22,864 nucleotides of DNA, taken from IMG/VR virus record IMGVR_UViG_3300032298_000149, positions 1 through 22,864 of that record, one strand, 5' to 3'. Positions 20,330-22,596 of this stretch are shown here, piece after piece. The position numbers and the translations under genes were made by a program. The DNA comes from a virus. Each line of letters begins with the position of its first letter. Positions within the stretch are counted from its first letter, which is position 1. The notes under the pieces were generated by a model. That model had not been told where the DNA came from and ran no database searches. It saw only the letters and a list, made by a program, of their open reading frames with translations.

Positions 20330-21679
20330 ATGAACCTCCGCCCCTACCAAACGCAACTAATAGATCAAATCCGCCTGCAATACCAGCTTGGGCATCGGTC
20401 GGTCCTAGCCGTACTACCTACTGGCGGCGGCAAAACCGTATGCTTCAGCCATATTGCGCAAGCTGCGGCAAAGAAAGGCAACCGCGTTTGTATTTTGGTG
20501 CATCGCGCTGAGTTACTGGATCAAGCAAGCCGCAGTATGCCATTGCATCATGGCATTATTGCAGCAAACCGCAGCATGGATTTGTCTGCTGCGGTACAGA
20601 TTGCAAGCGTGCAAACATTAGCGCGGCGCCTGCATTTATTACCGCGTGATTTCTTCCAACTGCTAATTGTTGATGAGGCGCACCATACCAGTGCAGGTCA
20701 ATGGTCTACGGTGGTCAATCATTTTGAATCTGCGCGGTTGCTTGGTGTAACGGCAACACCGATCAGACTTGATGGTAAAGGCTTAGGTGAGCACTACCAG
20801 GCAATGGTTCAAGGACCAAGTGCCGCATGGCTAACCGATAACGGATACCTTGCTAATGCACGTGTGCTGGCACCGCCTGGTTTTAATACCACCGGCCTGC
20901 GCAAGCGTATGGGTGATTTTGACACCCGCGAAGCTGAGCATCGGATCGGCACGATAATGGGCGACTGCTTAAGCCATTACCGCAAACACCTTGAAGGGCA
21001 AACGGCGATTGCGTTCTGCTGTTCAGTAGCGCACGCTGAGGCCGTGGCTTCTCTCTTCCAGTGCAATGGCATACCAGCCGCCAGTATTGACGGCAGCATG
21101 ACTGGTGAGCAGCGGCGTGATCTATTGCAGGCACTTGGTACTGGCAGGATCAAAGTTTTGACATCTTGCGCATTGATCGGTGAAGGCATCGACGTGCCAT
21201 CAGTTGGGGGCTGCATCCTGCTGCGACCTACTGCTAGCACCAGCCTGCACCTGCAAATGATTGGCCGATGCTTGCGGCCATCACCCGGCAAGGCTGCTGC
21301 GGTGGTACTAGATCATGTCGGTAATACGCTGCGGCTAGGCCACCACCTAGAGCAACGTGAATGGACGCTAGACGGTGAGCACAAAAAAGACCGAGAAAAA
21401 GCACCATCGGTTAAGGTATGCCCGAAATGCTTTGCTGCAATGGCCAGCCAAGCAAGGCAATGCTTGGAATGCGGCCATGCATTTGTTGCTGAAACAAGGG
21501 AGCTTGAGGTCGTTAAAGGTGAGTTAACAGAACTCGACCTAAGCAAACAACGCCAACGCGCTGAGGTAGGCGGCGCCCGCAGCATGGAGGATCTGCTACG
21601 GCTTGAGCGGCAACGCGGCTACAAATCAGGCTGGGCAAAGCATATAATGGCTGCACGGCAAACCAGGAGGGTGGGATGA
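20330..21679 (+). CDS. DEAH superfamily 2 helicase with C-terminal zinc ribbon
   Basis: This 449-aa protein is an SF2 helicase. It has the Q-motif-like start LRPYQTQLIDQI, Walker A PTGGGKT (residues 30-36), DEAH (115-118), TATP (141-144), and the C-terminal core motifs SIDGSMTGEQRRDLL, GEGIDVPSV and QMIGRCLRP (308-316). A zinc ribbon follows with Cys363, Cys366, Cys377 and Cys380 (CPKC, CLEC). The closest look is to phage and bacterial restriction-type or SSL2-like helicases. It could act in phage DNA replication, recombination or repair. It leads the plus-strand set; its stop overlaps the methyltransferase start (ATGA). No clear Shine-Dalgarno is seen in front of the ATG. Confidence 0.9.
   Translation: MNLRPYQTQLIDQIRLQYQLGHRSVLAVLPTGGGKTVCFSHIAQAAAKKGNRVCILVHRAELLDQASRSMPLHHGIIAANRSMDLSAAVQIASVQTLARRLHLLPRDFFQLLIVDEAHHTSAGQWSTVVNHFESARLLGVTATPIRLDGKGLGEHYQAMVQGPSAAWLTDNGYLANARVLAPPGFNTTGLRKRMGDFDTREAEHRIGTIMGDCLSHYRKHLEGQTAIAFCCSVAHAEAVASLFQCNGIPAASIDGSMTGEQRRDLLQALGTGRIKVLTSCALIGEGIDVPSVGGCILLRPTASTSLHLQMIGRCLRPSPGKAAAVVLDHVGNTLRLGHHLEQREWTLDGEHKKDREKAPSVKVCPKCFAAMASQARQCLECGHAFVAETRELEVVKGELTELDLSKQRQRAEVGGARSMEDLLRLERQRGYKSGWAKHIMAARQTRRVG
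21665..21670 (+). promoter_or_regulatory. Strong Shine-Dalgarno AGGAGG for the methyltransferase
   Basis: AGGAGG lies 5 bases before the ATG at 21676 and 8 before the second ATG at 21679. Most genes in the window lack such a site, so this one is unusual. The spacing slightly favours the second ATG, which would drop one Met. Confidence 0.7.
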
Positions 21680-22596
21680 TGCTTAGACTGTTAGACACCT
21701 TTAGCGGTATCGGTGGATTTAGTTATGCGGCAGAGCAAATCGTCGGCGGTTATGAGACGGTAGCGTTTGTTGAACGCGATCCGTTCTGCCAGAAAATCCT
21801 TGCAAAACACTGGCCCACCATTCCTATTCACGATGACATCTGCACTTTCAATCCAGCACCAGGATCAGTTGACGTTATTTGCGGTGGATTCCCCTGCCAA
21901 GACATTAGCACCGCAGGCAAACAAGCCGGCATCAAGGAAGGCACTCGGTCTGGTCTCTTTTACGAACTCATGCGAGTCGTTTGCTTGGTACAGCCCCAAT
22001 ACGTCGTCTTGGAGAACGTCGCAGCGATCACTGCTAACGGAATGGACGTTGTACTCGGAACGCTGGCCAAGGCAGGGTTTGATGCGGAATGGGCATGTAT
22101 ACCGGCAAGTGCTGTGGGCGCCTGCCATCAAAGAGATCGGTGGTGGCTTGTTGCGTACTCCAACCGTTGGGATGGTCAATCAGGACAGGTCGCAAGATCC
22201 GCAATACATGAGCAAGCTGCTCGCCAAGGGGCAGACGGTGACGCTGGCAGCGCAGATGAAGTCGGCGGAGATGCTGCCAACGCCCAGAGCGGGGGAGACA
22301 TCAGACAGGACCAGTACACCGGGCAACCGTTTCAGCCTCAGTGCATGGGCGAGCCGGGGATGCTCAACATTGCCAACCCCAGTGGCACGCGACTGGAAAG
22401 GTCGGAGCACCCGCAATGGCGCATTACCCAACAGCTTTGTCCCGACTGGGGGGGGTATATATCTGAACCCGTCCTTTGTCGAGGAGATGATGGGCTTTCC
22501 GGTCGGGTGGACCGTCTTAAAGCCTTAGGCAATGCTGTGGTCCCGCAGGTGGCTGCCATACCATTGGCCCGTGTGCGCGAATTAGCCAATGTCTGA
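21676..22596 (+). CDS. DNA (cytosine-5) methyltransferase
   Basis: This 306-aa enzyme has the C5-MTase motifs in order: motif I LLDTFSGIGGFSYAAE (about 5-20), the motif II region AFVERDPFCQKIL, motif IV GGFPCQDIS with catalytic Cys74, motif VI VLENVAAI (Glu113), motif VIII HQRDRWW (about 151-157), and motif X LGNAVVPQ (285-290). The part of about 165-260, where the target recognition domain should be, is rich in Gly, Ala, Asp and Gln with little obvious fold. It would methylate phage DNA, probably against host restriction. No nuclease partner of a restriction pair is adjacent. The same DNA has a long second open frame (see the next entry). Confidence 0.93.
   Translation: MMLRLLDTFSGIGGFSYAAEQIVGGYETVAFVERDPFCQKILAKHWPTIPIHDDICTFNPAPGSVDVICGGFPCQDISTAGKQAGIKEGTRSGLFYELMRVVCLVQPQYVVLENVAAITANGMDVVLGTLAKAGFDAEWACIPASAVGACHQRDRWWLVAYSNRWDGQSGQVARSAIHEQAARQGADGDAGSADEVGGDAANAQSGGDIRQDQYTGQPFQPQCMGEPGMLNIANPSGTRLERSEHPQWRITQQLCPDWGGYISEPVLCRGDDGLSGRVDRLKALGNAVVPQVAAIPLARVRELANV
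21833..22528 (+). CDS. Overlapping +1-frame ORF inside the methyltransferase (possible gene)
   Basis: The +1 frame is open from a TTG at 21767 (253 aa), with the first ATG at 21833 (231 aa). The product looks like a protein family I recall from phages, often labelled methyltransferase-related: FAVDSPAKTLAPQ, then SFAWYSPNTSSWRTSQRSLL, EWTLYSERWPRQGLMRNG, LPTPVARDWKGRST, and the end YLNPSFVEEMMGFPVGWTVL. The motif SSWRTSQ is the DNA of the ENV motif (MTase motif VI) in the other frame, and DSPAKT is that of GFPCQDI. It stops at 22526-22528, exactly where motif X starts. It could be a true overlapping gene, a remnant of an alternative frame, or an artefact of conserved DNA. Confidence 0.4.
   Translation: MTSALSIQHQDQLTLFAVDSPAKTLAPQANKPASRKALGLVSFTNSCESFAWYSPNTSSWRTSQRSLLTEWTLYSERWPRQGLMRNGHVYRQVLWAPAIKEIGGGLLRTPTVGMVNQDRSQDPQYMSKLLAKGQTVTLAAQMKSAEMLPTPRAGETSDRTSTPGNRFSLSAWASRGCSTLPTPVARDWKGRSTRNGALPNSFVPTGGGIYLNPSFVEEMMGFPVGWTVLKP

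Follow-up and report, generated by a model that had tools for sequence, protein, structure and literature searches.

A phage gene coding in two frames, probably for a two-subunit C5-cytosine DNA methyltransferase of the M.EcoHK31I kind

Introduction

Nested two-frame C5-cytosine DNA methyltransferases (C5-MTases) have been regarded as an oddity seen in a handful of restriction systems. In M.EcoHK31I, the β polypeptide is encoded in an alternative frame inside the gene for α, and M.EaeI is a two-polypeptide C5-MTase of the same kind. As summarized in PMC3404938, which cites Lee 1995 on this point, the large subunit of M.EcoHK31I carries motifs I-VIII and X and the small subunit motif IX; the predicted TRD is placed in the large subunit (PMC3404938). 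M.AquI is a natural C5-MTase split between motifs VIII and IX, and its small subunit holds both IX and X (PMC3404938). An out-of-frame ORF of another sort, with no obvious ribosome-binding site, is found in mycobacteriophage methylase genes: the ShiLan-domain insertion, which is mobile, codes for an HNH endonuclease and has a patchy distribution (PMC11855218). A literature search for overprinting in C5-MTases returned nothing. Here we describe a phage C5-MTase gene, α, which contains a second open frame, β, at +1. We conclude that the locus is very probably a dual-coding gene for a two-subunit C5-MTase of the M.EcoHK31I kind, in which the nested β would supply the recognition region and motif IX.

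Results

The α frame carries motifs I-VIII and X

The material was IMGVR_UViG_3300032298_000149, positions 1-22,864, and this whole stretch of 22,864 nucleotides is called the window. Judged by its gene content it is a fragment of a tailed phage, with genes for tape measure, head morphogenesis, portal, terminase, DNA polymerase beta clamp and primase on the minus strand, and the helicase, α/β and VRR-NUC nuclease genes on the plus strand. The VRR-NUC gene starts at ATG 22589, inside the last codons of α (which ends at 22596), and is truncated by the window edge (22864). The features of the α frame are:

21665..21671, plus strand: AGGAGGG, Shine-Dalgarno of α (from sequence; anti-Shine-Dalgarno duplex -10.8 kcal/mol)
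21676..22596, plus strand: α, C5-MTase frame, 306 aa (ORF list; PF00145, phrog_363 and Foldseek matches)
21694..21720, plus strand: motif I, DTFSGIGGF (from sequence)
21883..21900, plus strand: motif IV, GGFPCQ, with the catalytic Cys (invariant or nearly so in 58 relatives)
22012..22020, plus strand: motif VI, ENV (its +1 reading falls within SSWRTSQ)
22126..22146, plus strand: motif VIII, HQRDRWW (from sequence)
22171..22503, plus strand: residues 166-276, low-confidence linker (model pLDDT; low identity among relatives)
22513..22545, plus strand: motif X, RLKALGNAVVP (from sequence; model pLDDT)

The original prediction described this frame as intact, with all catalytic motifs and motif X. 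Motifs I-VIII and X are indeed present and phrog_363 matches α with E=2.1e-74, but no motif IX was found in the gene's own frame and the PF00145 match (E=1.5e-36) is limited to residues 4-166; α does not carry motifs I-X in one frame as an ordinary single-chain C5-MTase does. In the AlphaFold model of α the Rossmann core is confident, and motif X lies in a helical segment at the C-terminus (pLDDT 69 over residues 281-290 and 94 over residues 291-300); between the two is a disordered gap, with residues 193-275 mostly below pLDDT 50. With this model Foldseek returned M.HhaI as top match and M.HaeIII further down, over about 170 aligned columns of about 325. Since the linker is disordered and the alignment partial, the target-reading part of a C5-MTase has no folded counterpart in the α model. 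Among relatives, α identity is 0.22 over codons 163-255 versus about 0.7 elsewhere. The linker occupies the place of the recognition domain and motif IX of a single-chain MTase.

The nested +1 frame has its own homologues and a motif IX-like block

A 253-codon +1 frame, from TTG 21767 to 22528, lies wholly within the 306-codon α gene, as had been predicted, and its translation contains SSWRTSQ, RWPRQG, LPTPVARDWKG and LNPSFVEEMMGFPVGWT. The open stretch is real; its proposed beginning did not hold, for TTG 21767 is merely the first start codon of that stretch and the signal of selection starts at α codon 54, near ATG 21833. The features assigned to β are:

21833..22528, plus strand: β long form, 231 aa, from a probable start at ATG 21833 (synonymous constraint, stop avoidance, ATG excess)
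22004..22093, plus strand: conserved block SSWRTSQ...WPRQGLMRNG (1 +1 stop versus 183 expected, codons 93-134)
22004-22024, plus strand: SSWRTSQ, overlapping the ENV codons of α (22012-22020)
22069..22077, plus strand: AAGGCAGGG, Shine-Dalgarno-like, preceding ATG 22082 (duplex -8.1 kcal/mol)
22082..22528, plus strand: candidate β short form, 148 aa, from internal ATG 22082 (start-codon excess at codons 135-137)
22148..22402, plus strand: LRTP/LPTP/LPTP repeats (22148, 22274, 22370), proposed recognition region (from its position between motifs VIII and IX)
22463..22510, plus strand: motif IX-like block LNPSFVEEMMGFPVGW (consensus, position; hhalign segment)
22526-22528, plus strand: β stop TAG, end of the +1 frame, at α codon 284

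Independent relatives of the +1 translation were found in 483 viral stretches, and 58 of 58 β members examined matched phrog_1008, a family annotated as DNA methyltransferase. The homologues predicted for this frame thus exist, and no β without α was seen among the loci examined. In addition to the LPTP repeats, β carries the C-terminal block LNPSFVEEMMGFPVGW, similar to the motif IX of single-chain enzymes, LTPRECARLMGF. When β was compared with single-chain MTases by hhalign, the best segment placed LNPSFVEEMMGFPVGW on their motif IX, LTPRECARLQGFPD, at E=0.2, which is not significant alone; the motif IX assignment rests on consensus and position, the profile match being weak. The original prediction took α for a complete MTase and so overlooked that the second frame alone holds motif IX. 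Its suggestion that β might be a partner subunit gains support, as this motif IX-like block appears in β and is absent from α.

Other searches give β no counterpart. No Pfam domain matched it (its members gave four chance-level hits, best E 0.05, none of them HNH), a PDB sequence search with the β profile gave only chance hits (glycolipid transfer protein, E=0.24), the AlphaFold model was poor (pLDDT 55, pTM 0.24) and Foldseek on that model gave no meaningful match. The β N-terminal block (SSWKTSQ...WPRQG) has no aligned counterpart in single-chain MTases. Overprinted genes commonly have novel functions, and the missing Pfam match and unaligned N-terminal block could be read as signs that β acts on its own in some other role, for instance as a regulator or in counter-defence, and happens to be overprinted on an MTase gene. 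We consider this very unlikely: the motif IX-like block ends β at the correct place in the VIII-IX-X order while α has no IX, β is never seen without α in the loci examined, and at one actinophage locus (described below) IX and X stand together in that same frame.

Both frames are under selection

With the α protein of the window held fixed and its synonymous codons reshuffled, 6.4 +1 stops are expected in codons 54-280; none is seen, and none of 300 shuffles gave zero. The same statistic was computed over 72 non-redundant viral loci, a set that is partly selected (IX at +1, α open). In these loci +1 stops were near expectation in codons 2-50 (94 versus 117 expected), fell in codons 54-92 (14 versus 57), practically vanished in codons 93-134 (1 versus 183), 137-162 (0 versus 40) and 226-279 (0 versus 98), and reappeared in codons 284-304 (112 versus 88). 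Stops in frame +2 were much closer to expectation than those in +1. Synonymous diversity relative to expectation followed the same boundaries: about 0.92 in codons 1-50, about 0.74 in codons 54-100, between 0.2 and 0.75 over the whole of codons 54-279, and back to about 0.95 from codon 280, the β stop being at codon 284. Reshuffling in the reverse direction, with β fixed, predicts 5.3 stops per locus in the α linker. Selection keeps both frames open. The case for dual coding is strong, and the overprinting suggested by the original prediction is borne out by the +1 stop avoidance and by synonymous diversity that is reduced in the overlap and near normal outside it. That the second frame is a real gene is all but certain.

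Might the +1 conservation reflect only the MTase motifs or an RNA-level constraint, with no second protein? Part of the β sequence is forced by α, since the ENV codons read WRTS at +1, and weak β-profile matches do occur over the conserved motifs of ordinary MTases (loci L194-L196). Searches of viral contigs with Bacteroidaceae and Vibrio-phage single-chain MTase queries gave no loci, so the controls were drawn from genome loci found by PF00145: 33 C5-MTases with an in-frame motif IX, in the region equivalent to codons 93-160. These contained 139 +1 stops versus 154 expected, with at least one in each of the 33 loci, so the MTase motifs alone do not hold the +1 frame open. Among the other 22 genome loci the +1 frame was stop-free only in L257 and L291, both with a +1 motif IX-like block. 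Moreover, strong stop avoidance is confined to +1 within the overlap, the boundaries of constraint coincide with the ORF, and the fastest codon position, which is α position 3 outside the overlap, moves in codons 226-285 to α position 1, the third position of β. A by-product of this sort also predicts that close α relatives would keep α and freely break β, whereas 62 of 65 keep β (see below). This explanation is hardly credible, and as a by-product of MTase motifs it was rejected on the 33 controls. SSWRTSQ does echo the ENV codons, but this explains little. The idea that the +1 family is a general feature of C5-MTases fell with the same controls; the open +1 frame belongs instead to a class with motif IX coded at +1.

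The two-frame layout in relatives

Both motifs were found in 80 viral loci, the window included, with IX at +1 and X in the α frame; α is open through motif X in 78 of them. A query with α only avoids picking loci by β, and with it the β C-terminus lay at +1 of α in 62 of 65 relatives and in frame 0 in none. The exceptions were a one-base shift moving both frames (L158), a divergent +1 block visible by eye (L165) and an interrupted locus (L160). As the 72-locus set is partly selected, the 62/65 figure and the single-chain controls matter most. Taken with the 483 viral relatives, these counts run against both findings that would have spoken against the prediction, a +1 translation without homologues and a +1 frame freely broken by stops.

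In L158 and L063, one-base indels in the overlap break both frames together and the same +1 offset resumes downstream; these indels are either sequencing errors or marks of decaying genes. In L088 and L089, a stop codon interrupts the α linker, β is open and motif X is still found downstream.

The layout appears to be widespread in phages and bacterial genomes. We found it in Synechococcus, Microbacterium and Mycobacterium phages, with mycobacteriophage Royals2015 as one carrier of the pair; in the Bacteroidota Pedobacter borealis, Chitinophaga chungangae and Prevotella bivia; in a Planctomycetota MAG; in archaeal MAG contigs, which are possibly viral; and in several genomes of each of two samples, 201 from the Prevotella bivia family and 369 from the class to which a Gammaproteobacteria locus belongs. 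In Streptomyces phage Lilbooboo, an actinophage (L005:1790-2846), α stops after motif VIII, and IX and X lie together in +1.

Several loci have features of their own. In Prevotella bivia DSM 20514 (L179:1839-3440), a 495-codon β frame with several LPTP repeats lies within a 526-codon α, strikingly long for dual coding in a bacterial genome. The α frame of L206, a Gammaproteobacteria MTase of this class, has near 3-1922 an apparent intein-like insertion just after the Pro-Cys of motif IV (CFPEGTLVLTKRG...GIIVHNC). In Lilbooboo the +1 frame is open and conserved long before the point at which the annotated second gene begins. In Microcystis phage Mwe-JY08 (L002:392-652), the annotated 'hypothetical protein' is the β frame and the overlying α is unannotated; in Synechococcus phage S-H1, α is the sole annotated frame.

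Start sites of β

The boundary of selection at α codon 54 adjoins ATG 21833. An ATG is present within codons 52-55 in 61 of 69 loci (43.8 expected), and loci with +1 stops at codons 63-92 tend toward later ATGs. No Shine-Dalgarno was found before ATG 21833. A second site lies at codons 135-137, where 69 of 72 loci have an ATG or GTG whose exact position shifts by one codon; ATG accounts for 60 of the loci versus 33.8 expected. These starts are usually preceded by AGGCAGGG, and the Shine-Dalgarno-like duplex before them averages -6.15 over 49 loci versus -3.07 at random positions, although the sequence before ATG 22082 could be a coincidence of the encoded PRQG. Since stops are avoided between the two sites, most lineages must translate the long β form, to which the second site may add a short one. 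The choice of start is unsettled, with ATG 21833 the best supported and ATG 22082 the alternative.

The same boundary bears on programmed +1 frameshifting from α, which would yield a fused chain and no separate subunit. The two frames do overlap at +1, and in Lilbooboo one +1 shift would be enough to link motifs I-VIII with the frame holding IX and X. Against this, β constraint begins at codon 54, some 100 codons ahead of a useful junction, codons 41-53 contain no conserved nucleotides fit to act as a slippery site, and in the nested form X is back in the α frame, so that one fused chain would take a +1 shift followed by a -1 shift. We judge such a fusion very unlikely, and for want of a conserved site and with the constraint boundary in the wrong place we rejected frameshifting, including the earlier proposal that it supplies recognition.

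Discussion

The reading we prefer is that of two subunits encoded in one stretch of DNA. From the motif content of β we infer its function as a subunit. In this scheme, α would contribute the Rossmann domain for AdoMet binding and catalysis, with motifs I-VIII, and the helix of motif X; the linker connecting these would have no recognition domain of its own. β, probably a separate protein made from an internal start in the +1 frame, would give the recognition region and motif IX in trans and would bind α, the two proteins assembling as one enzyme. The heterodimer would then methylate DNA, and this modification would probably protect the phage genome. Selection on the two frames lends indirect support to the view that each polypeptide is made and required for activity. 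The points against are the poor β model, the lack of a Pfam match, the hhalign E of 0.2, the absence of a Shine-Dalgarno before ATG 21833, the α-linker stops of L088 and L089, and the assignment of the TRD to β here versus the large subunit in M.EcoHK31I.

More tentatively, and with the odds somewhat against the whole, the N-terminal part of β (codons 54-135) might have been born by overprinting of motifs IV-VI and now be selected, two β forms might be made from ATG 21833 and the Shine-Dalgarno-preceded ATG 22082, and the nested two-frame MTase might be, for the most part without annotation, among the commonest long dual-coding gene pairs of phages and prophages.

It is rare for a long same-strand overlap to have both its proteins under strong selection, and hard to prove. 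Here more than 200 codons are dual-coded, with sharp boundaries and a clean control, and the gene class occurs across phages and bacterial genomes. Gene callers retain one frame only, β in Mwe-JY08 and α in S-H1, so many phage 'orphan MTases' may have been cloned or modelled minus their recognition subunit. The enzyme makes the splitting of one protein across two frames of the same DNA testable.

Among known systems, the ShiLan-domain insertion is alike in being an out-of-frame ORF in a phage methylase gene. It differs in that β is conserved, has no Pfam domain, HNH included, and overlies the MTase motifs themselves. M.AquI shares the split of a C5-MTase between VIII and IX, but its small subunit has both IX and X, whereas the α frame holds X in the window, as in 79 further viral loci; the M.AquI-like motif split is present at the actinophage locus L005. 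phrog_1008 may include M.AquI-type β proteins with IX and X together, to judge from its profile, which also weakly matches motif X of α (positions 294-316, E=0.18). YGGCCR and CYCGRG are the targets of M.EcoHK31I and M.AquI, respectively. The closest known enzyme, by described motif layout, is M.EcoHK31I. The present gene differs from it in belonging to a phage, with no restriction partner noticed beside it, and in that the recognition region apparently lies in β and not in the large subunit. The two are alike in a large subunit with motifs I-VIII and X and without IX, and in a motif IX, assigned here by consensus and position, that is coded in a second frame inside the large-subunit gene.
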